DNA of 64,000 nt from Deltaproteobacteria bacterium (GTDB taxonomy: Bacteria; Desulfobacterota_D; UBA1144; Nemesobacterales; JAJCZQ01): the NCBI GenBank assembly GCA_029262335.1, contig JAJCZQ010000031.1, positions 1-64,000 on the forward strand. Reading direction: 5' to 3'. Below the pieces are notes generated by a model. That model had not been told where the DNA came from and searched no databases. It worked only from the letters and a program-made list of their open reading frames with translations. This document shows, piece after piece, positions 2-44,232 of the stretch. Numbering within the stretch: position 1 is the stretch's first letter; each line of letters opens with the position of its first letter. The position numbers and the translations under genes were made by a program.

Positions 2-3000
2 GGATTCGAAAAAATACAAGTCCAGGGCGTAGAATTTTACCAGATGGGCCAGGGTGGAAGGCTGGGGCGCTACCCGGTCAATTTCCGTCTTGCCAGAAAA
101 ACACCTTCAGATACTTACTTAAAAGACAACTCAATACACGACTCAATGACACGCTGGATCACGCTCCAGGGTACTCATGGGGTCTTACTGGAACGTAATG
201 TTGGATATAAATCAATCGGGCACGGATATTTCCTTAAAGACGCAACAGAAATAGATAATAAGTTTTACTCAAACATCGGAATATTGGCCCGTGCTGCAGT
301 TCAGAATGATGTTCAAAATCCAAGAAAGGTCCCTGGAATATATTCTTCATTTATAAATGATCCAAGAGTAGAAAATGTACCATTTCAGACTGATTATCAT
401 CATCCAACAATCTTCTGGATATCAAATGGGTGGAACGATTTTCAGTACAATATGGCTGCCGGAGCCACTACATGCGGTACATGCTATTGGCTTGTCCCGG
501 CCGCCAACAGCACTTTATCTCGAAACCAATTGTGGAATTCATACGCATCTGTACAGGCTGATTTTGGTAATGCAGGAACGACACCTCTAAAGAAATTCAA
601 AGGTAACTACTGTACATCTGCTATGAACTCATTCAACACTGTTGGTAATGTTGCTGTATGCACAGGTGTCGGTGGCCCGAACGGTGATCTTAACAATCCA
701 AACGACCCGGCAAGGGACAAATTTATTGCTGTTATACCAAATGACAATGCTGCAAACCTTGGGGATTTAAATTATTTTCCCTCTGTCGCTGGTGCCGCAT
801 CCAGAATTGCAACCAGATGTGCAGTGGGTGCAAAAACTATTGATAATACAACAATTGGTTCTGACCTCGATTGTACAAGGGTGGCAAGGTGTGCAGAAAA
901 TAATACTGATACAAACTGCAACGTGACTACAATTGAAGAATACACAACTTCATTTCATTTTACTGAAACCAATTTTTCGGCATTATGGCTAAGGCCCCAA
1001 TGGTTCCTTGTAGTTAACAGTTTTATTTCGGATGTTCAGAATGCAGGCCTGACTTTTGTAACAGGTGGAGATTACACTCGTTCTTCATCCATAGGCGGAA
1101 ACTGGCTTGTTGCATTAAAAAACGTATTTGTGGGGAACACACAGGAAAATAATCCTCTTGCGTCTAATGCAGGGCCCGTGGTCCCAGGCGGGCTTTCATG
1201 TGATACAAGAGACAACACAGTAAATTACTGTCTTCTAGAGAAGGAAGGAATTAGTATTCCATTATCAAATTTTGCAAATAACCAAAGACTGTTCAATATC
1301 TATGACGGTCCTGCCCAGCAGGCGGACAATGCCTATTTGGATATAACCGAGACAGAAATTGGAGACTGTAATTTAAACAATGGGAACTGTCAGAATAGTC
1401 CGTATATGTACGGCAAGGTGACGGGCATGCCGTTTAACCAGGAAAAAATAAGCTGTGTTTTACCGAATGCAGCAATCGCATGGAAACAGCCAAATGGGTT
1501 TTATTATCCTCCTTCGTTCCATTCCACAAATTTATTTTTTGATAAAGTTGATATCAGACATTTTATTATTAACCCATTATTTTTACCTGGAACAAGGACA
1601 ACTGATTTTGCTCAGGTACAGAAACAGTACTGTACTCATACCGGAACAGGGACTTTTAACGATTTTACAGAGGTGGACAGGCAGACTGTACTGAATGACG
1701 ACGATGGGTCTCTTACGGGATACCAAAGGACAATTTCAGTTAATGAAGACCCGTTTTTTAATGCACCAATAGAAGCTTTCGAATGTGAAAGTAATGAGAC
1801 TGCCAAAGTAAGCCCATATGAGTATGTAACAACTGCGATTTTTCCTCAGTGTGGCTCAATTACTGAGCCTTCCCCATGTTCTTCAAATGATGCGGACTGC
1901 GGCCCAATATGCTCGGGTAGGGCAGGTTGTCTACCATGCTGTGAAACCTGCGAAGACTGGAATGCCTCGGCATCAGATCCAACAACTTATGGTGTGCCTA
2001 TGTACAGGCAGTGCCTTACAGGTTCGGAAATGGATAATAATGAAAACCCGAGTATCAGGCTTATGGGCCAGGCGATACATCAGAGGAGTAACCTGACACC
2101 AAACAATGCAAATTTCTATATTGATACAACTGTAAGTAAAGAAACCCAATTGAAAAATTTAAATACAGGTATTAAACGAGTAAATGTCTTTAAGCCCGGT
2201 GATACATACTATGTATACCTTGTTTATGCAACTGAAAATACCAACCAGGAATACCAGATATATGTAGGAAAGGGGTTTAATGTTGAAAATGACCTTCAGG
2301 CTGTAAGGACCCCGCTTCTTACCAAGACATTGCAGTTTAATGATGTCCCATGGCCTGAAACATGGAGTAATAAGGAAGAAACCTATGATCCTTCAACTGG
2401 CATACTAAAGGTTAGAATGAAAATGAATTTCGATGAATTTAGAAATGGAATTTCTGAGGCCAAGGAAAATAGCTGCAGGCCCAGCAGTTTCTGCGAGTGG
2501 AACAAATCCGTTTCACAGTGCCAGTGCTCTGATACTTTAAAAAACGAAGACCCGGAACTGTATGAAATTTGTAAGCAGGATAACGGGCAGGGTGAGCACC
2601 AGGTATGCAGGTGGTCTGGAATTGACGTTGACTGTCCCGAAGGAGGCTGTTACGGATTTTCATTCACACTTCCTTCCTCTCCTTCCCAATTTCAAACGGA
2701 AGACTGTGATGAAACACCAGGTTCGGCAAACGAGTGCGGAAGGACTATAAGCCAGGGCGGAAAAAGACCCGATATTGAGTGTTTTCCTACAAATACACTA
2801 TGGAAAATACCGTGGATTAAAGCAGTGAATGGTAAAAATGGTAATAGTGTTGCAGGCGCATGTGAACTATCCCCGGTATTTGACAATAACTTCTGTGACT
2901 TACGCATAGGACAGCCTGATATTGCCTGTAACCTTATAGAAGGTACAGCTCGTAATGATTATCTTTCCGGAACATCTGAAAGCGATGTAATAAGAGGCCT

Positions 3001-3250
3001 AGGCGGGGATGACCTCATTTTTGGCTTAGAAGGTAATGATTTTATACAGGGTGGGCCGGGTGATGACCTTATATTTGGCGGAAGAGACAATGATACTATC
3101 CACGGTAATAGTGGTGATGATAACATTGACGGCCATACTGGAGACGATACCTTAAACGGCGGCGAAGGTTTTGATATTGTTGACGGAGGTTCTGATAACG
3201 ACACCTGCGAAAATCACGAAGATTCTTTTGACTGTGAAGTGCAGAATTAA
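2..3250 (+). CDS. Giant exported G8/TMEM2-like protein with C-terminal RTX repeats (5' partial)
   Basis: The reading frame is open to the first base of the window, so the start lies upstream; the first Met (base 44) is internal. The first ~65 residues (GVEFYQMGQ, LGRYPVNF, LQGTHGVLLERNVGY, GHGYFLKDATE) match the parallel beta-helix segment of G8-domain proteins such as CEMIP/TMEM2. A long Asn/Cys-rich middle follows, with a dense cysteine cluster near bases 1850-1970. The last ~90 residues (bases ~2950-3210) carry glycine/aspartate nonapeptide repeats such as GGPGDDLIF and GNSGDDNID, typical of RTX calcium-binding beta-rolls, which are usually exported by type I secretion. No type I exporter lies in the window. 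The role is probably extracellular or surface carbohydrate/matrix interaction; this is inference. Confidence 0.7.
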   Translation, partial: GFEKIQVQGVEFYQMGQGGRLGRYPVNFRLARKTPSDTYLKDNSIHDSMTRWITLQGTHGVLLERNVGYKSIGHGYFLKDATEIDNKFYSNIGILARAAVQNDVQNPRKVPGIYSSFINDPRVENVPFQTDYHHPTIFWISNGWNDFQYNMAAGATTCGTCYWLVPAANSTLSRNQLWNSYASVQADFGNAGTTPLKKFKGNYCTSAMNSFNTVGNVAVCTGVGGPNGDLNNPNDPARDKFIAVIPNDNAANLGDLNYFPSVAGAASRIATRCAVGAKTIDNTTIGSDLDCTRVARCAENNTDTNCNVTTIEEYTTSFHFTETNFSALWLRPQWFLVVNSFISDVQNAGLTFVTGGDYTRSSSIGGNWLVALKNVFVGNTQENNPLASNAGPVVPGGLSCDTRDNTVNYCLLEKEGISIPLSNFANNQRLFNIYDGPAQQADNAYLDITETEIGDCNLNNGNCQNSPYMYGKVTGMPFNQEKISCVLPNAAIAWKQPNGFYYPPSFHSTNLFFDKVDIRHFIINPLFLPGTRTTDFAQVQKQYCTHTGTGTFNDFTEVDRQTVLNDDDGSLTGYQRTISVNEDPFFNAPIEAFECESNETAKVSPYEYVTTAIFPQCGSITEPSPCSSNDADCGPICSGRAGCLPCCETCEDWNASASDPTTYGVPMYRQCLTGSEMDNNENPSIRLMGQAIHQRSNLTPNNANFYIDTTVSKETQLKNLNTGIKRVNVFKPGDTYYVYLVYATENTNQEYQIYVGKGFNVENDLQAVRTPLLTKTLQFNDVPWPETWSNKEETYDPSTGILKVRMKMNFDEFRNGISEAKENSCRPSSFCEWNKSVSQCQCSDTLKNEDPELYEICKQDNGQGEHQVCRWSGIDVDCPEGGCYGFSFTLPSSPSQFQTEDCDETPGSANECGRTISQGGKRPDIECFPTNTLWKIPWIKAVNGKNGNSVAGACELSPVFDNNFCDLRIGQPDIACNLIEGTARNDYLSGTSESDVIRGLGGDDLIFGLEGNDFIQGGPGDDLIFGGRDNDTIHGNSGDDNIDGHTGDDTLNGGEGFDIVDGGSDNDTCENHEDSFDCEVQN

Positions 3251-5214: not shown

Positions 5215-5242
5215 TTGACAACTGTAGAAAAATGATTAAAAT
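5215..5242 (+). promoter_or_regulatory. Sigma-70 type promoter of the c-di-GMP riboswitch transcript
   Basis: TTGACA (5215-5220), a 16-base spacer and TAAAAT (5237-5242) are present. A start about 7-9 bases downstream falls at ~5249-5251, exactly at the first base of riboswitch P1, which supports both calls. Confidence 0.65.
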
Positions 5243-5250
5243 TCTTGTAT

Positions 5251-5363
5251 AACTATCAGACAAGGGCATACCGGTTCGAAAGGCCGGGACGCAAAGCCAC
5301 AGGCCTAAGACCTCCATTCACCCATCTTAGATAAAGGTTAAGGCAGCTGGGTTCCCGATAGTT
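5251..5363 (+). ncRNA. Cyclic-di-GMP-I (GEMM-I) riboswitch
   Basis: The aptamer core follows the GEMM-I pattern: a P1 helix with perfect 7-bp arms (AACTATC 5251-5257, GATAGTT 5357-5363), then AGGGCATACCGG, a GAAA tetraloop, GGGACGCAAAGCC, the CCTAAG tetraloop-receptor strand, a second arm, and GCTGGGTTCCCG closing P1. The G in GGGCA, the A-run of CGCAAAG and the C of the final TTCCCG correspond to the ligand-contacting positions of the family. It lies in the leader of the C25 protease, 187 bases before its ATG. Ligand binding is inferred from the motif. Confidence 0.93.
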
Positions 5364-5416
5364 GTTTCAATTATGCTTAGTTTAGGGATGGACTGGTTTT
5401 ACATAGTTGAAGCAAC
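5361..5416 (+). promoter_or_regulatory. 15-bp hairpin abutting riboswitch P1 (possible expression platform)
   Basis: Bases 5361-5375 pair with 5402-5416 over 15 consecutive positions, including two G-U pairs. The first three bases (5361-5363) are also the end of riboswitch P1, so the two helices compete at the junction. No T-run follows, so it is not a simple terminator. It could be a switching, RNA-processing or stability element. Confidence 0.5.
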
Positions 5417-5550
5417 AAACCAATAAATACAATAATTACTGCATGTTAGATGATTTGGCATCATAATTGCATGTTTATAATATAGATATAAAGATAGATT
5501 TAAGAAAACTTTTTAATTAAAAATAATTTAAAAATCTGGAGAGTCTTTTA

Positions 5551-8500
5551 ATGAATTTTACAAATATCAGAAAAACTTTATTAATCGCTTTATTCTTTGT
5601 ATTTACCTTTTATTCTGGCAATTATAATGCATTTTCACAGCCGGGAGAGCTTCAATGGGGCCCTGCAGGAACCCAGTGTACAACAAATACAGTGCCACCA
5701 AATGGTAATCTTGGTGTACAACCTGTTTGTACCGGTGGACCAGGTGGTAATGCAACATTACAAAATGGTGTAGATGCAACTGTAACATTAGCATTTCCGG
5801 GTACAACAACCCCGGGAGCAGTTGCCCCAATTGCAAATGCTGCCTGTTCCACAGATCCAACTCTCATGCAAAATTGCCCGGGAGTAATGCCTTCTGTGCC
5901 GGGACTTGGAAATAATTTTCAGTATTTGTCAATGACTTCAGGCTCGGATGACTGTAGTGCACAGCAATCAGTAACAATTGATTTTGATCCCCCGATTACA
6001 AATCCGTCTTTTACTTTGGGTGATATTGATAATGGGAGTGCTGCATCACCGCCTGCAAACTGGCAGGACCTTGTAATTGTTACAGCTGTTCCTGATGGGG
6101 GAGGTAATGTATCTGCAAATAGTGTAGTTCTTGGCGGGGCAAATGTAGCCCAGGTTACTGCCGGGACTAATTTCCCGGGAACTGCATGTTCCACCGGGAC
6201 TTTATCATGTCCGAATAATACAACCTGTTTCAGGGGATTAAGCAGTACTAATAGTAACAGTGCAGCATCAAATGCTACTTTAAGCTACTCAGGAGATATT
6301 GAGAGTATTACTGTTACATATTACGCAGGTGATGTTACTAATACTATATCTGCACAGTTTGTTACGCTTGGCCCAATCAGCTGGACGGACACACTACCCG
6401 TGACCTTATCATCATTTAGCTCGGATTACGGATCAGGCGGAGTGGTATTGGACTGGAGCACATCAACAGAAACAATAAACATAGGATTTAATATCTACGC
6501 CCACATAGACGGGGAAAGAGTAATAATAAACGACCAAATGATAGAGAGCCACATGGGAGACAGCGTTATTCCCCAGTACTACGAAGCAGTGGTTGATGTT
6601 CCTGAAGGTGCTACGGAGCTTAGCATCTCTTCTGTGGATATATACGGCGCTGAAGAGTTTTTTGGCCCCTATGAAATAGGGAAGAGCTTCGGAGAGGAGC
6701 CTGTTGTAAGTAAAATCAACTGGAAAAACATAAAAGAACAATATAATCAAAAGATGGCAGGAAAGGGCTTTGAGATGAGGGGCGGCAAGATGAGGGCCCC
6801 AGCCGAAGAAAGCGGCCTTGTATCAAACTTCATAGCAAGAGTCGGCGCAGCTGATTCCCCTGTGTGTAACGTAGCAGTAAGCGAAGAGGGAATGCACCGC
6901 GTAAGGGCTCGTGATCTTAGAAATGCGGGATGCGATTTTAGGGGAGAGGATATAGATGATATAGCCGTAACCTTTAAGGGAGAGCCCGTATCAAGAAGAA
7001 TTAAAAGCAATAGCGGCAAAATAAAGAACGGAACAAGCATATACTTCTATGCAGATACCCCGGGCGGAAGGGACTTTTTATACACAACAGAAAACGTATA
7101 CCAGGTAAGTATAGACCCCGGGCTTGCAGATATTCACGAAGATACTTCTAAACCAAAAAGAAATCAGCTCGGCAGTCTTGAGCGAAGCTACATGCATGAA
7201 GTGTTTGTGGAAAGAAACCTAAACTACAACTTCACTAACCCCTACGGGGAAGTGGATGAGTTTGATCCGTGGACAGAAAGAACTATGTCAGCCGCGGAGA
7301 ATTTAACAAACACCTATTCCTATGAAATCCCCGTGCATGATGATGTAGACACCACAAGGGACGGGAAGGTAAAGGCAAGAATAATTGCGGTAACAGATTT
7401 TACCGAGGAAACAATAGACCATAAGCTGGTGCTAAACCTAAACAGCGGAGTTGATAAGGGGCCATTTACCCAGGAAGGAAGGGCAAACTGGTATATAGAA
7501 GCACCTGTGGATGGTAGTGACTTTACCCCGGGAACAAACACCCTTGATATGACAGTAGGTGGACTTCCGGTATTTGATTTTACAAGAACTGATTCCTATG
7601 GGCTTATGTACTGGAGGCCAACTGCATCAATAGACGATGTACTAAACTTTACGGAATACAGTGAAGCCTTGGGCTACAGCGCAACAGGGTACAGCGTAAA
7701 AAATGTACAAGTCTACGGTGAGAAAGAAGGCCAGCTCTATAAACTAAAAACAAGAAAAACAAATGAAGAAGGGAAGTACACCGTATCTTTTAAAAGTCTG
7801 GGAGAAGGGGCAAGGTACTGGGTAAGCCCAATATCCCAGTTTAAAGAGGGAGTAATAACTAAAGCAGATGTTGGTGATATTAAAGACGGTAGCGCAGATG
7901 TACTTATACTAACTCATCCTGCCCTTACGGGATCGGAGCTTGATGCATATGAGAGTTACGTAAGTAACCAGGGCTATACTACAAAGGTAGCAAATGTGCT
8001 TAACGTATATAACTACTTTGGTTACGGTATGCCTACCCCTGAGGGAATAAGAAGTTACTTAGAGTATGCAAAGGATAATCTAAATGTAGAGTACGTAGCA
8101 ATAGTTGGGGGAACAACCACTGAGTACCCTGATCCCGCAACCTCTGAAACAATACAGTACGTGCCAACGGATTTTCAGCTAACACAGGACATACTCTTTT
8201 TTACCCCATGTGACGGATGTATGGCAGACTTTAACGGAGACTTCGTGCCTGAATTAAAAATATTTAGAATCCCATCAAGGCAGGTAAGTGATACGGGAGC
8301 AGTAGCTACTAAATCAGTAAACTACGACCCTGATGCAACGGCGCTGCTGCTTGCAGACCAAACGCAGGAGCAGAACTTCGGCGCTCAGCTTGATGCAGTA
8401 TCAAACAGGCTCGGTGGTTACGGTACGATGAAGTACTACCTGAGTGATATAATGGCAGATAACGGCGTATCGCTAAATGATGCAATATGCATAGCTCAGC

Positions 8501-9048
8501 AGGGAGCAGCGTGTGCCGCATGCCCAACAGGAGGGCCCTGCGAATCAATGACAGGGTTTATAGACGATATAAACAATAACAACAAAAGACTTATAATGTA
8601 TAACGGACACTCAAGTATACTTGGATGGACGTTTAACAACCTTTTAACCAATACAATAGTAGAAAATGATATAACCAACACGGAGCCAACAGTGGTACTG
8701 CCAATGGCATGCTACACAACGTACTACGAAGATCCGGGAACAGCATCCCTTGCGGACCAGCTGCTTTTTAAAGCAACAGGCGGATCAGTAGCAGTGTCAG
8801 GGGCGGCAACGCTTAGCAGCCTGGGAGATAACGGGACGTTTACCGAAAGCATACTGGATAAAATGTGCGACGGTACAACTACTCTTGCAGAAGCAGTGTT
8901 TGAGACAAAGCAGGAGAACTCAGGCCTTACAGACCAGGTAATCAACTGGGACCTTATAGGTAACGGCTTTGTGACAATTGCTGAGTGTGAGGAGCCTGTT
9001 GTGGTTGTGGACCCACCTTCTGGTGAAGAGACACCTGAGGACAATTAA
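5551..9048 (+). CDS. Exported gingipain-like cysteine protease (peptidase C25)
   Basis: A signal peptide covers residues ~1-29. Residues ~30-280 form a Cys/Thr/Asn-rich beta region, and ~283-320 contain an LPVTLSSFSSD...VLDWSTSTE...GFNIY module of the kind found in Bacteroidota and Chlorobi surface proteins. From ~783 the C25 fold begins (DVLILTHPALTGSELDAYESY, YVAIVGG). The catalytic His is in MYNGHSS (His1020) and the Cys in PMACYTTYY (Cys1054). The C-terminus ends in a short Pro/Glu tail with no recognisable type IX sorting domain. The start follows GGAGAG. Expression is probably controlled by the c-di-GMP riboswitch upstream. A role in extracellular proteolysis or surface-protein release is inference. 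Confidence 0.85.
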   Translation: MNFTNIRKTLLIALFFVFTFYSGNYNAFSQPGELQWGPAGTQCTTNTVPPNGNLGVQPVCTGGPGGNATLQNGVDATVTLAFPGTTTPGAVAPIANAACSTDPTLMQNCPGVMPSVPGLGNNFQYLSMTSGSDDCSAQQSVTIDFDPPITNPSFTLGDIDNGSAASPPANWQDLVIVTAVPDGGGNVSANSVVLGGANVAQVTAGTNFPGTACSTGTLSCPNNTTCFRGLSSTNSNSAASNATLSYSGDIESITVTYYAGDVTNTISAQFVTLGPISWTDTLPVTLSSFSSDYGSGGVVLDWSTSTETINIGFNIYAHIDGERVIINDQMIESHMGDSVIPQYYEAVVDVPEGATELSISSVDIYGAEEFFGPYEIGKSFGEEPVVSKINWKNIKEQYNQKMAGKGFEMRGGKMRAPAEESGLVSNFIARVGAADSPVCNVAVSEEGMHRVRARDLRNAGCDFRGEDIDDIAVTFKGEPVSRRIKSNSGKIKNGTSIYFYADTPGGRDFLYTTENVYQVSIDPGLADIHEDTSKPKRNQLGSLERSYMHEVFVERNLNYNFTNPYGEVDEFDPWTERTMSAAENLTNTYSYEIPVHDDVDTTRDGKVKARIIAVTDFTEETIDHKLVLNLNSGVDKGPFTQEGRANWYIEAPVDGSDFTPGTNTLDMTVGGLPVFDFTRTDSYGLMYWRPTASIDDVLNFTEYSEALGYSATGYSVKNVQVYGEKEGQLYKLKTRKTNEEGKYTVSFKSLGEGARYWVSPISQFKEGVITKADVGDIKDGSADVLILTHPALTGSELDAYESYVSNQGYTTKVANVLNVYNYFGYGMPTPEGIRSYLEYAKDNLNVEYVAIVGGTTTEYPDPATSETIQYVPTDFQLTQDILFFTPCDGCMADFNGDFVPELKIFRIPSRQVSDTGAVATKSVNYDPDATALLLADQTQEQNFGAQLDAVSNRLGGYGTMKYYLSDIMADNGVSLNDAICIAQQGAACAACPTGGPCESMTGFIDDINNNNKRLIMYNGHSSILGWTFNNLLTNTIVENDITNTEPTVVLPMACYTTYYEDPGTASLADQLLFKATGGSVAVSGAATLSSLGDNGTFTESILDKMCDGTTTLAEAVFETKQENSGLTDQVINWDLIGNGFVTIAECEEPVVVVDPPSGEETPEDN

Positions 9049-9075
9049 ATATTATTAAAATATAAAAAAAAGAAA

Positions 9076-9105
9076 AAGGGAAGCAATTTTTGCTTCCCTT
9101 TTTTT
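9076..9105 (+). terminator. Rho-independent terminator of the C25 protease gene
   Basis: The stem AAGGGAAGCA / TGCTTCCCTT has a five-base loop and is followed by seven T residues. Confidence 0.9.
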
Positions 9106-9404: not shown

Positions 9405-9415
9405 ATGTGTTGCTT

Positions 9416-9445
9416 ACTTTTCTTTATCTTGATATAAAGAAAAGT
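9416..9445. repeat. Stem-loop element, copy 1
   Basis: The 12-bp stem ACTTTTCTTTAT / ATAAAGAAAAGT encloses the loop CTTGAT. A second copy in inverted orientation lies at 48818-48841, with the same loop and one compensatory base-pair exchange. Confidence 0.7.
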
Positions 9446-9542
9446 ACCAAAAGAATCATCCAGGCATTACAAAAAATAAAATCAAAAAAGTTTCGGTTGA
9501 TGAATTTGGGTTTAGTAGATTGTTATAGGTATCTTTTAATTT

Positions 9543-39446: not shown

Positions 39447-42386
39447 ATGTCTAAAGGTAAGAATGGTGGAATAAACAGAAGGGATTTTTTAAAGGTAATC
39501 GGTGTTGCCGGTGGAACAGCGGCCGTTACAGGTGCGTGTTCAGGAGAACCGGTAGAACAGATTATTCCTTATGTTATACCCCCTGAATCTTATATACCAG
39601 CTATTCCCAAATTCTATTCTTCCACATGCAGGGAGTGTCCTGCAGGTTGCGGCATTATTTTAAAAAACAGGGACGGAAGAGCTATAAAGGTAGAAGGTAA
39701 TCCCAACAGCCCTATAAACGGCGGATCTACTTGTGCAAGGGGCCAGGCTTCACTCCAGGGTTTATACAATCCCGACAGAAACAGGTCACCATTAAAACTA
39801 AACGAATTTGGAAGGCTCGCACCAACATCATGGGAAACCGGTACTAATGATCTTTCCGCAAAAATTAACGAGCTTGTAAGCCAGGGGAAAGGCAGCCGTA
39901 TTGTCTACCTCAGCAACAGCATATCAGGCACATTAAATGAGCTCGTAGACAAATGGACCAACGCCATAGGTGCAAAACACTACACTTACGAATCATTCTC
40001 ATACGACTCTATTAAAGAAGCAAACAGTATTTCTTTTGGAATTGATGAAATTCCAAACTATAAAATTGAAAATGCAGATTATGTTCTGTCCTTTGGTGCT
40101 GATTTTCTTGAAACATGGCTTTCACCGAACCAGTATGCACGTGGTTTTTCAAAACTGAAAACTGTAAAAAACGGTAAGGTCGGAAAATTTGTACAGGTAG
40201 AACCAAGAATGTCTCTTACAGGTGCAAGTGCTGATGACTGGGTAGCAGTAAAACCCGGTACTGAAGTATTTCTGGCCCTTGGGATAGCCAATGCAATAAT
40301 TAAAAACGGCGGAGCAAAAAAGGATGCTGGCCTTGTTTCGGGTATGGTCTCATCTTATACCCCGGAAAAAGTATCACAGCTTACCGATGTACCTGCCGAG
40401 ACCATAAACCAGATTGCAAAAGATTTTACCAAATTTAAAAGTGTTGCCCTTGGGGGCGGTGTTGCCCTTACCGGAACAAACGCTACAGAAACACTTGTTG
40501 CGATTAACATCCTTAACTATATTGCCGGCAATATCGGTAAAACAGTTGATTTTTCAGATACGCAGCTCATTTCAAATGCAAATAATTTTAAAGATATATT
40601 AAAGCTTCTCGAAGACATGAAGAGCGGAGGGGTGGATGTTCTTATTGTGCACGGTGTAAATCCTGTATTTACACTTCCAAAGTCACTTAATGCCGAAGAA
40701 GCAATTAAAAAAGTACCTTATATAGTCAGCTTCGCTTCCTTTATGGATGAAACAACAGAGCTTTCTCAGCTTGTACTTCCAGATAACCATTCAGTGGAAA
40801 GCTGGGGAGATTTTCAGCCGACTAAGAGCTATGTAAGCATCATTCAGCCTGCAATGAGGCCGGTATTTAATACACAGTCCGTAGGTGATACGCTGATATC
40901 ACTTAGTAAGAAAGTAGATTCAACAAAAGAACTTATAAACGAAGAAACATACTATGATTATTTAAGAAGTGCATGGAAAAACGTAGCAAACTACGTAGCA
41001 CCTAATAAACAGTTTGACCTTTTCTGGAATGATACCTTAAGGGACGGTGGAGTTGAGATAAACCTTCCTGAAAGGTCTGTAGAGCTTTCATCTGCAGTAC
41101 AGTCTGTAAAATTTGCAGAGCCGGAATTTAAAGGAGACGGAGAATACTACTTTATTACATATCCCTCTTATAAGTATTATGACGGTTCAGGTGCAAATAA
41201 ACCATGGCTCCAGGAACTTCCCGAAGGCCTTACAACATCCGTTTGGGATTCATATGTAGATATGAACACTGAGACTGCTAAAAAAATGGGTGTGAGGGAA
41301 GGATCATTTATTAATATTCAGTCACCCCAGGGTGAAATAAAAACCCAGGTCTTTACCTATGACGGTATCAGGCCTGACACAATAGCTGTTGCAATCGGAC
41401 AGGGTCACACTGCTTACGGAAGATATGCAAAAGACCGTGGTGTAAACCCTCTTGACCTGCTTCCAAATATGTCTGACAGACTTTCCGGCGGATTTGCTTT
41501 TCTTTCCTCCAAAGTATCTGTTTCAAATGCAGGAAAACACAGCCTTCTTGTAAGAACTCAGTACACAAGGACCCAGCACGAAAGGGGCGTTGCACAGGCA
41601 ATAACGCTTGACCAGCTTAACCATCCTGATGACCATCACGGTGAGCACCATGATGAGCCGGATTTTTATCCTCCAAGAGAGTATCCAAACCACAGATGGG
41701 CAATGAACGTCGACCTCAACAAATGCACCGGCTGCGGGGCATGTGTAACAGCATGTTATGCAGAAAACAACATTCCTTTTGTAGGAAAAGCACAGGTTGC
41801 AAAAAGACGTGATATGTCGTGGATCAGGATTGAAAGGTATTTTGATAAAGACGAAAACGGCAGGATGGACACAAGATTTTTACCAATGATGTGTCAGCAG
41901 TGCGGTAATGCACCTTGTGAACCTGTATGCCCTGTATTTGCCACATACCATAACCCGGAAGGGCTTAACGGAATGATTTACAACAGGTGTGTTGGTACGA
42001 GGTACTGTGCAAACAACTGTACTTATAAAGTAAGAAAATTTAACTGGTATACATATAAATTCCCCGAACCACTTAACTGGCAGCTAAATCCGGACGTAAC
42101 AGTCAGGACCAAAGGTATTATGGAAAAATGTACTTTCTGTGTCCAGAGGATTAAGTACGGAACAGATATTGCCAAAGATGGTGACGGTATAGTAAAAGAC
42201 GGAGATATTCTGACAGCTTGTCAGCAGGCCTGTCCTACTGATGCAATTGTGTTTGGTGATCTGAAAGACACAACCAGCCAGGTAGCAAAACTTTCACACG
42301 ACGATAGAGGCTACAAAGTTTTTGAAGTTATTAATACGAAACCAGGAATTACATATCTAAAAAAAGTAAAGTGGGATAACGCCTAA
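39447..42386 (+). CDS. actB: Alternative complex III subunit ActB, molybdopterin-oxidoreductase-like Fe-S protein
   Basis: A twin-arginine signal is visible (INRRDFLKVIGVAGGTAAVTGAC). Residues ~50-700 follow the molybdopterin oxidoreductase fold (CRECPAGCGIIL, STCARGQ), but in ACIII this half binds no Mo cofactor. Residues ~740-960 form a PsrB-like ferredoxin region with cysteine clusters CTGCGACVTACYAEN, CQQCGNAPCEPVCPV, TFCVQRI and CQQACPTDAIVFGD. It holds the Fe-S chain of the complex. The stop overlaps actC by one base. It is one of the longest genes in the window and fully open. Confidence 0.95.
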   Translation: MSKGKNGGINRRDFLKVIGVAGGTAAVTGACSGEPVEQIIPYVIPPESYIPAIPKFYSSTCRECPAGCGIILKNRDGRAIKVEGNPNSPINGGSTCARGQASLQGLYNPDRNRSPLKLNEFGRLAPTSWETGTNDLSAKINELVSQGKGSRIVYLSNSISGTLNELVDKWTNAIGAKHYTYESFSYDSIKEANSISFGIDEIPNYKIENADYVLSFGADFLETWLSPNQYARGFSKLKTVKNGKVGKFVQVEPRMSLTGASADDWVAVKPGTEVFLALGIANAIIKNGGAKKDAGLVSGMVSSYTPEKVSQLTDVPAETINQIAKDFTKFKSVALGGGVALTGTNATETLVAINILNYIAGNIGKTVDFSDTQLISNANNFKDILKLLEDMKSGGVDVLIVHGVNPVFTLPKSLNAEEAIKKVPYIVSFASFMDETTELSQLVLPDNHSVESWGDFQPTKSYVSIIQPAMRPVFNTQSVGDTLISLSKKVDSTKELINEETYYDYLRSAWKNVANYVAPNKQFDLFWNDTLRDGGVEINLPERSVELSSAVQSVKFAEPEFKGDGEYYFITYPSYKYYDGSGANKPWLQELPEGLTTSVWDSYVDMNTETAKKMGVREGSFINIQSPQGEIKTQVFTYDGIRPDTIAVAIGQGHTAYGRYAKDRGVNPLDLLPNMSDRLSGGFAFLSSKVSVSNAGKHSLLVRTQYTRTQHERGVAQAITLDQLNHPDDHHGEHHDEPDFYPPREYPNHRWAMNVDLNKCTGCGACVTACYAENNIPFVGKAQVAKRRDMSWIRIERYFDKDENGRMDTRFLPMMCQQCGNAPCEPVCPVFATYHNPEGLNGMIYNRCVGTRYCANNCTYKVRKFNWYTYKFPEPLNWQLNPDVTVRTKGIMEKCTFCVQRIKYGTDIAKDGDGIVKDGDILTACQQACPTDAIVFGDLKDTTSQVAKLSHDDRGYKVFEVINTKPGITYLKKVKWDNA

Positions 42387-43714
42387 TGAGTCAAGATACT
42401 AAATTGACATACTCCAGAGTCACTACAGACGTAGTTGCAATGCTTGAAAAGCCTTCCGTAAAGTGGTGGGCACTATTCATGATTTCATTATCTTTTGTAG
42501 GGATTGGTTTAATCTGTTTTATTTACCAGGTTTATGTTGGTCTTGGAGTAGCAGGCTACAGGCACCCGGTATTCTGGGGTACATATATTACCGACTTTGT
42601 ATTCTGGGTTGGTATTGCACATTCAGGAACATTAATTTCAGCAATTTTATACCTTTTCAGGGCACGGTTCAGGATGTCGATTTACAGGATAGCTGAAGGT
42701 ATGACCGTATTTGCGGTGCTTACAGCTGGACTATTCCCAATTATGCACCTTGGTAGGCCCTGGAACTTTTACTGGCTCTTTCCTTATCCGAACCAGAGAG
42801 AGATATGGATCAACTTTAAATCACCACTTGTTTGGGACGTTTTTGCAGTAAGCACGTACCTTACAGTTAGTTCCCTGTTCTTTTTAATCGGTATGATTCC
42901 GGATATTGCGGCAATCAGGGACAAAGTAACAGAAAAACCAAGAAGAATAATATATTCAATACTGTCATTCGGTTGGAAAGGTTCCAACTGGGAATGGCTC
43001 CATTACGGAAGGGCTTATCTATATTTTGCGGCTCTCGCAACACCTCTTGTACTCTCGGTACACTCAGTTGTGTCATGGGATTTTGCAATGGGTAATGTGC
43101 CGGGATGGCACACCACAATATTTGCACCATACTTTGTAGCCGGGGCGATCTTTTCCGGACTTGGCATGGTAATAACTCTTACAATTCCAATCAGAAAGAT
43201 ATTTCATCTTGAAGATTATATAACTCTTGATAACTACGACGGGATGGCAAAGCTGATTATGTTTACATCCGGTATCGTTGGTTATGCATACGCAGTAGAA
43301 TTTTTTATGGCCTGGTACAGCAGCAGCCCGTTTGAATGGCAGCAATTCATGTACAGGGCAGTTGGAGAGTACGCACTGTTTTACTGGATAATGGTAATAT
43401 GTAACGTTGTTATCCCTATTCCTCTGTGGTTTAGTAAAGTAAGAAGAAATCTAAAATGGCTGTTTATTATTTCAATTTTTATTAATATCGGCATGTGGTT
43501 TGAAAGATTTAACATTATTGTAATATCACTATCGAGGGATTTTGATCCTGCTGCCTGGGGTGTTTATAAAATATCATGGGTAGAAGCAGGTATTACTGCT
43601 GGTAGTTTTGCATGGTTCTTTATGTTTTTCCTAATATTCCTGAAAACACTGCCATCAGTATCTATTTCGGAAATAAAAGAAATACTTCCCGTACCCAAAA
43701 GGGGGGATAAGTAA
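42386..43714 (+). CDS. actC: Alternative complex III subunit ActC (NrfD-like, quinol site)
   Basis: This polytopic membrane protein has about ten TM segments in the NrfD/PsrC pattern: FVFWVGIAHSGTLISAILYL, MHLGRPWNFYW, VHSVVSWDFAMGN and PGWHTTIFAPYFVAGAIFSGL. In ACIII, ActC carries the menaquinol/ubiquinol oxidation site facing ActB. At 442 residues it is typical. Single-base overlaps with both neighbours indicate strict co-translation. Confidence 0.95.
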   Translation: MSQDTKLTYSRVTTDVVAMLEKPSVKWWALFMISLSFVGIGLICFIYQVYVGLGVAGYRHPVFWGTYITDFVFWVGIAHSGTLISAILYLFRARFRMSIYRIAEGMTVFAVLTAGLFPIMHLGRPWNFYWLFPYPNQREIWINFKSPLVWDVFAVSTYLTVSSLFFLIGMIPDIAAIRDKVTEKPRRIIYSILSFGWKGSNWEWLHYGRAYLYFAALATPLVLSVHSVVSWDFAMGNVPGWHTTIFAPYFVAGAIFSGLGMVITLTIPIRKIFHLEDYITLDNYDGMAKLIMFTSGIVGYAYAVEFFMAWYSSSPFEWQQFMYRAVGEYALFYWIMVICNVVIPIPLWFSKVRRNLKWLFIISIFINIGMWFERFNIIVISLSRDFDPAAWGVYKISWVEAGITAGSFAWFFMFFLIFLKTLPSVSISEIKEILPVPKRGDK

Positions 43715-44232
43715 TGAGTTTAAATCAAGGCGTAGTTGGAGTTTATTCGTATGTTGATTCTGTACTGGATGCCGTAAGGAAACTTAAGGCTAATGGTTAT
43801 GAAAACCTGAGGGTTTTTTCACCTGTTCCTTTACATGAAGTTGAAGAAGAAATTGATCTTCCCCCAAGCCCCGTAAGGTTTTTTACATTATTTGGAGGAC
43901 TCCTGGGTGCAGCAAGCGGATTTGCATTTACTGTATTAACATCAGCTGCATGGCCTATTTCGGTCAGTGCAAAACCAATAGTATCAATACCGCCTTACAT
44001 GGTAATTGTATTTGAGCTAACTATTCTTTTTGGAGCAATTTTTACACTTGCAGGACTTCTCGTGAATGGCTTTTTGAGAAACAGGGCACCAGTGTCTATG
44101 TACGATAAAAGATTTTCGGATGACAAGTTTGGTGTGATGGTAGTATGTCCAACAGAAAATATAAGCAGTGTGCAGGATATTTTAAATTCGACAGGAGCAG
44201 AAGAAGTTAAAGTTGACAGTATTGACGGTTAA
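43714..44232 (+). CDS. actD: Alternative complex III subunit ActD (DUF3341)
   Basis: This has an N-terminal soluble ACT-like part (VGVYSYVDSVLDAVRKLKANGYEN), then two TM segments (residues ~55-75 and ~97-118), and a C-terminal soluble tail with KFGVMVVCPTENI. This is the DUF3341 architecture of ActD in the complex. It starts on the actC stop codon. Confidence 0.92.
   Translation: MSLNQGVVGVYSYVDSVLDAVRKLKANGYENLRVFSPVPLHEVEEEIDLPPSPVRFFTLFGGLLGAASGFAFTVLTSAAWPISVSAKPIVSIPPYMVIVFELTILFGAIFTLAGLLVNGFLRNRAPVSMYDKRFSDDKFGVMVVCPTENISSVQDILNSTGAEEVKVDSIDG

Follow-up and report, generated by a model that had tools for sequence, protein, structure and literature searches.

A c-di-GMP-I aptamer and a competing hairpin in the leader of a putative exported C25 cysteine protease gene of an uncultured Desulfobacterota_D bacterium

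Results

A c-di-GMP-I aptamer precedes a putative exported C25 protease gene

The window, i.e. the whole 64-kb stretch of DNA that was analysed, contains a gene for a putative exported cysteine protease of family C25, which is preceded by a sigma-70-type promoter, a c-di-GMP-I (GEMM-I) aptamer and a hairpin and is followed by an intrinsic terminator (Table 1). The gene upstream of this unit is msrA and the terminator is strong, so that the transcription unit of the protease looks monocistronic. Near the left end of the window, positions 44–3250 encode the last part of a large protein of exported type that the contig start apparently truncates; it bears a CEMIP beta-helix and calcium-binding RTX repeats and is a possible surface protein near the protease. 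To the right of the protease, a palindromic element (9409–9475, 13-bp arms 9415–9427/9434–9446) lies between the Rdx gene and aat; it is an interspersed repeat, present as a single copy in the window and with related copies at many sites of a genome of the same genus (G001).

Table 1. Features of the protease locus (positions in the window).
Feature	Position	Strand	Basis
Sigma-70-type promoter	5215..5242	+	-35 TTGACA 5215-5220, -10 TAAAAT 5237-5242
c-di-GMP-I (GEMM-I) aptamer including P1	5249..5365	+	Rfam core 5255-5359 and unconstrained fold
Hairpin after the aptamer	5361..5416	+	5361-5375 with 5402-5416, inner 5377-5384 with 5389-5396; fold energy, z
Shine-Dalgarno-like GGAGAG before ATG 5551	5538..5543	+	Sequence
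Putative exported C25 cysteine protease, 1165 aa	5551..9048	+	One open frame; signal-peptide-like N-terminus by eye
Peptidase_C25 domain, aa 785-1124	7903..8922	+	Pfam match
His1020 codon, predicted catalytic (NGHSS)	8608..8610	+	Conserved in G017; aligned with Gly-His of PorU 6za2
Cys1054 codon, predicted catalytic (MACYTTYYED)	8710..8712	+	Conserved in G017; aligned with PorU Cys motif
Intrinsic terminator after the protease	9071..9105	+	16-bp stem, T-run

An Rfam cmscan of the window returned a plus-strand match to RF01051 (c-di-GMP-I) at 5255–5359 with 69.8 bits (E = 1.3e-11, gathering cut-off 35 bits), the sole riboswitch in the 64 kb, which spans model positions 1–87 of 87 with no non-standard pairs flagged. 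RNA 5249–5365 folded without constraint into the GEMM-I fold, with a P1 of 9 bp (5249–5257 with 5357–5365) at a probability of about 0.996. In AAGGGCAUACC, the GG before C keeps the consensus GGC at the position equivalent to G20 of Vc2, the equivalence being our own numbering of the alignment. G20 has been described as a factor in selectivity for c-di-GMP versus cGAMP (PMC9262584), and a G at the equivalent position favours c-di-GMP over cGAMP as the predicted ligand. The score lies within the range of the three other aptamers of the genome (68–75 bits), and as an RNA the element is a plain member of RF01051 that would be expected to bind c-di-GMP.

The promoter TTGACA-16-TAAAAT, with its 16-nt spacer, matches 11 of 12 consensus positions (p = 0.01, mononucleotide shuffles), and because of its position the RNA is expected to start near 5248–5250, roughly where P1 begins, this being a consensus match and not a mapped start. 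Promoter-like sites were also found just upstream of 44 of the 64 aptamers of the order at p ≤ 0.1, where about 6 were expected from mononucleotide shuffles, and in the genome itself the -10 ends 11–19 nt upstream of the Rfam start in all four aptamers. The first-pass annotation had proposed a complete GEMM-I aptamer at 5251–5363, a promoter with its start at the first base of P1 and a C25 cysteine protease downstream. The Infernal search with RF01051 that it suggested, now run, agreed with the aptamer (69.8 bits against a cut-off of 35), whose Rfam core and P1 lie within two bases of that interval on either side; the promoter was recovered as a consensus match only, with a predicted start at about 5249, and the protease family was confirmed by a Pfam match in ORF 5551–9048.

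This match, to PF01364 (Peptidase_C25), covers aa 785–1124 at 136.7 bits (cut-off 23), and the hydrophobic N-terminus of the protein reads, by eye, as a signal peptide. A homologue in another genome of the same order (G017) shares 36% identity over about 890 aa, and the neighbourhoods of His1020 and Cys1054 are common to both proteins. When the protein profile was compared with solved structures, the best and only match was the sortase PorU, a weak one (E = 0.19); the alignment, of low significance, places His1020 and Cys1054 opposite its Gly-His and Cys motifs. An AlphaFold2 model made from two sequences had a mean pLDDT of 33.7 and was set aside. With the C25 family (gingipains, PorU) the protein shares the Pfam domain and the His/Cys pair; unlike the gingipains, it comes from a genome in the whole of which the type IX secretion tail Por_Secre_tail (TIGR04183) was not found. 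The earlier label "gingipain-like" therefore holds at the level of the family and not beyond it, given the absent tail and the E value of the PorU match, and the protein is best read as a plain C25 member rather than as a gingipain sensu stricto.

A hairpin downstream of the aptamer competes with P1

The aptamer lies about 190 nt from the start codon. The hairpin at 5361–5416 (15 + 8 bp) has a folding energy of -20.2 kcal/mol (z = -5.9 against dinucleotide shuffles), which is far beyond chance. Bases 5361–5365 are common to the 3' strand of P1 and to the hairpin, so that the two structures compete. In folds of growing transcripts, the predicted probability of P1 fell from 0.996 at 5365 to 0.26–0.31 at 5418–5425, where the hairpin is complete. 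Forcing the complete aptamer to form costs 6.3 kcal/mol relative to the free ensemble and 3.5 kcal/mol relative to P2/P3 plus hairpin. A nanomolar affinity for c-di-GMP has been published (Sudarsan 2008, as cited in PMC3627812), and binding of that strength could pay the 3.5–6.3 kcal/mol cost of the P1 fold. Among the 64 aptamers compared, the hairpin at 5361 forms the longest contiguous arm starting at the 3' side of P1. The possibility that it represents a repeated mobile element was ruled out, as it is present in a single copy in the genome. The hairpin is absent from the first-pass annotation.

No intrinsic terminator was found in the 188-nt leader between the aptamer and the ATG, and there is no U-tract after 5416. 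Folding with either structure enforced revealed no P1-dependent sequestration of the ribosome site: its unpaired probability was 0.05 with the P1 fold versus 0.14–0.18 with the alternative, a modelled difference that appears too small to carry weight. The motif ACUCUCC in an orphan aptamer RNA of the genome (see below), complementary to the ribosome site GGAGAGU, was likewise given no weight, the 7-mer occurring five times in the window.

c-di-GMP-I aptamers in the source genome and its relatives

The source genome (G000; 2.09 Mb, 51 contigs, 92.6% complete) carries four c-di-GMP-I aptamers and encodes PilM. A search for GGDEF and EAL proteins found no EAL protein and one GGDEF protein (C28:39016–39483), whose GGDEF motif is intact and which also carries an RxxD I-site and the canonical GHxxGD. 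The aptamer on contig C29 precedes genes for a short exported protein and a 910-aa exported repeat protein; the latter, behind an aptamer of its own, is a possible substrate of the protease, as a candidate only. The aptamer on C19 (33812–33896) precedes a gene for a TPR protein of >3200 aa. An aptamer is found 190–260 nt before a giant gene in G000:C19, G001:C186 and G017:C4, the product being >3200 aa in two genomes, cut by the contig in G001 and TPR-rich in the one that was scanned.

The fourth aptamer (C39:64012–64096) has no gene downstream and sits between convergent genes. This orphan aptamer is also present in G001 (C240:11784–11868), and the same neighbourhood exists in G017:C66. It has a promoter-like site upstream, a non-coding tract that is well conserved, includes a C-rich segment and holds no ORF, and a strong terminator about 100–140 nt past the aptamer, with a perfect 15-bp stem in G001 and a near-identical one in G000; no such terminator was evident in G017. 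The RNA resembles the riboswitch-bearing non-coding merRNA of Bdellovibrio, which has been reported as not conserved outside the Bdellovibrio lineage (PMC3627812).

Within the order, 17 of 31 genomes carry aptamers, which precede pilM, pilB, genes for a PilZ/aminotransferase protein, an SLT lytic transglycosylase and several exported proteins, as is common for GEMM. Of 58 genomes of the phylum, 2 encode a C25 protease, and the window copy alone has an aptamer, the G017 homologue having none on its 124-kb contig. A scan of named genomes for relatives returned only G017's own contig, and the survey of the pairing covered the phylum. The pairing of aptamer and C25 gene occurs in no other examined genome, so that comparison lends the expression platform no support. 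In G001, contig C21 has the right flank (Rdx, aat) and ends just upstream of Rdx, i.e. at this junction, so that the absence of the protease there is uninformative.

Discussion

We consider it probable that the locus is a monocistronic gene for an exported C25 protease with a leader that starts with a c-di-GMP-I riboswitch, and that the hairpin competing with P1 would alter its output. Transcription would start at about 5249 and the aptamer would fold once 5365 has been made; without ligand, the hairpin would invade the 3' strand of P1 and unfold the end of the aptamer, and with c-di-GMP, P1 would be held and the hairpin shortened. The most likely result would be a change in the amount of protease mRNA completed or translated, and protease output would thereby follow the motile or sessile state of the cell. 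This model is built on computed elements, namely the aptamer, the promoter match, the competing hairpin and the protease family, from which we infer ligand binding, regulation and its direction, and the protease target. The first-pass annotation had tied the protease directly to c-di-GMP: aptamer, promoter and C25 gene stand, no terminator or switchable ribosome site through which the tie would act was found in the leader, and the caution that the role was an inference was right. Control of the protease by c-di-GMP, whatever its mechanism and direction, would be the natural reading of the locus.

Because the topology of hairpin and P1 is pilM-like, we lean slightly towards an ON switch. In the GEMM-I leader of Geobacter pilM, a strand stabilising the aptamer is recruited by a downstream hairpin, the two being mutually exclusive (PMC9262584); aptamer and hairpin exclude each other in both leaders, whereas the pilM hairpin is a terminator and the one described here is not followed by a U-tract. 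An OFF switch like the Cd1/zmpI leader of Clostridioides difficile, with c-di-GMP lowering the amount of a protease made as cells leave the surface, is quite possible but in our view falls short of probable. In the closest functional precedent, ZmpI with its class-I riboswitch, the effect of c-di-GMP is negative (PMC6366702), and the P1-bound fold exposes the ribosome site slightly less; however, this accessibility gap is too small to weigh, no terminator able to coexist with the bound aptamer was found, and the competition between hairpin and P1 resembles pilM and not Cd1 (PMC9262584). That the aptamer folds and may bind its ligand without controlling the gene, the protease being expressed mainly from an internal leader promoter or the platform being inert, appears improbable. 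Weak promoter-like sites do lie past the aptamer (5407, 5455 and 5500, each 9/12, with a TATAAT at 5476–5481), and there is a precedent in Bc1, a class-I aptamer that binds ligand while its genes show no response (PMC11218506), but internal sites are near chance in this AT-rich leader (5 found, 2.5 expected) and the upstream promoter is an 11/12 match with a placement that recurs in the order. That the element is a chance match, or a decayed aptamer left between genes, is extremely improbable, since the match is full length with unbroken pairs, an intact core and a score typical of the genome, even though the pairing is not conserved in the other genomes examined.

Under the preferred reading, a riboswitch-controlled protease, the sensor and the enzyme are both of known kinds and the novelty lies mainly in their pairing, so far in one uncultured genome. 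The protease and ZmpI belong to different clans. ZmpI (PPEP-1, CD2830), a secreted protease negatively regulated through a class-I c-di-GMP riboswitch, releases adhesins under positive control by class-II riboswitches (PMC6366702), and by this precedent the C25 protease may likewise cleave adhesins. Both systems have a class-I aptamer in the leader of a secreted protease gene; ZmpI, however, is a Gram-positive zinc metalloprotease with known adhesin substrates and an OFF switch, whereas here the enzyme is a C25 cysteine protease and no terminator was found, so that the likeness is one of outline at most. The LapD/LapG system also links c-di-GMP to surface proteolysis, but there control is post-translational and acts through a receptor protein rather than an RNA leader (PMC3032545). 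We advance only tentatively, and with some doubt, the wider proposal that the riboswitch controls the exported protease through a non-terminator anti-P1 hairpin, that the network around it is minimal (four aptamers, including the conserved orphan RNA, and a single GGDEF protein found), and that the whole would be an RNA-based equivalent, in a Gram-negative, of the surface-release circuit of ZmpI.

If the leader acts as modelled, an uncultured and poorly studied lineage would tie a secreted protease directly to c-di-GMP through its mRNA. Descriptions of this route have so far concerned a Gram-positive and another class of protease, and C25 proteases would join the list of GEMM-I targets. Our literature search found no paper joining a c-di-GMP riboswitch and a gingipain. 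The leader is also a small, self-contained example in which a class-I aptamer is paired with a competing hairpin but not with a terminator, and this hairpin and the orphan aptamer RNA are most worth attention. Elsewhere in the window, positions 39447–44229 carry Alternative complex III-like genes coding for a molybdopterin/Fe-S protein, NrfD and ActD.
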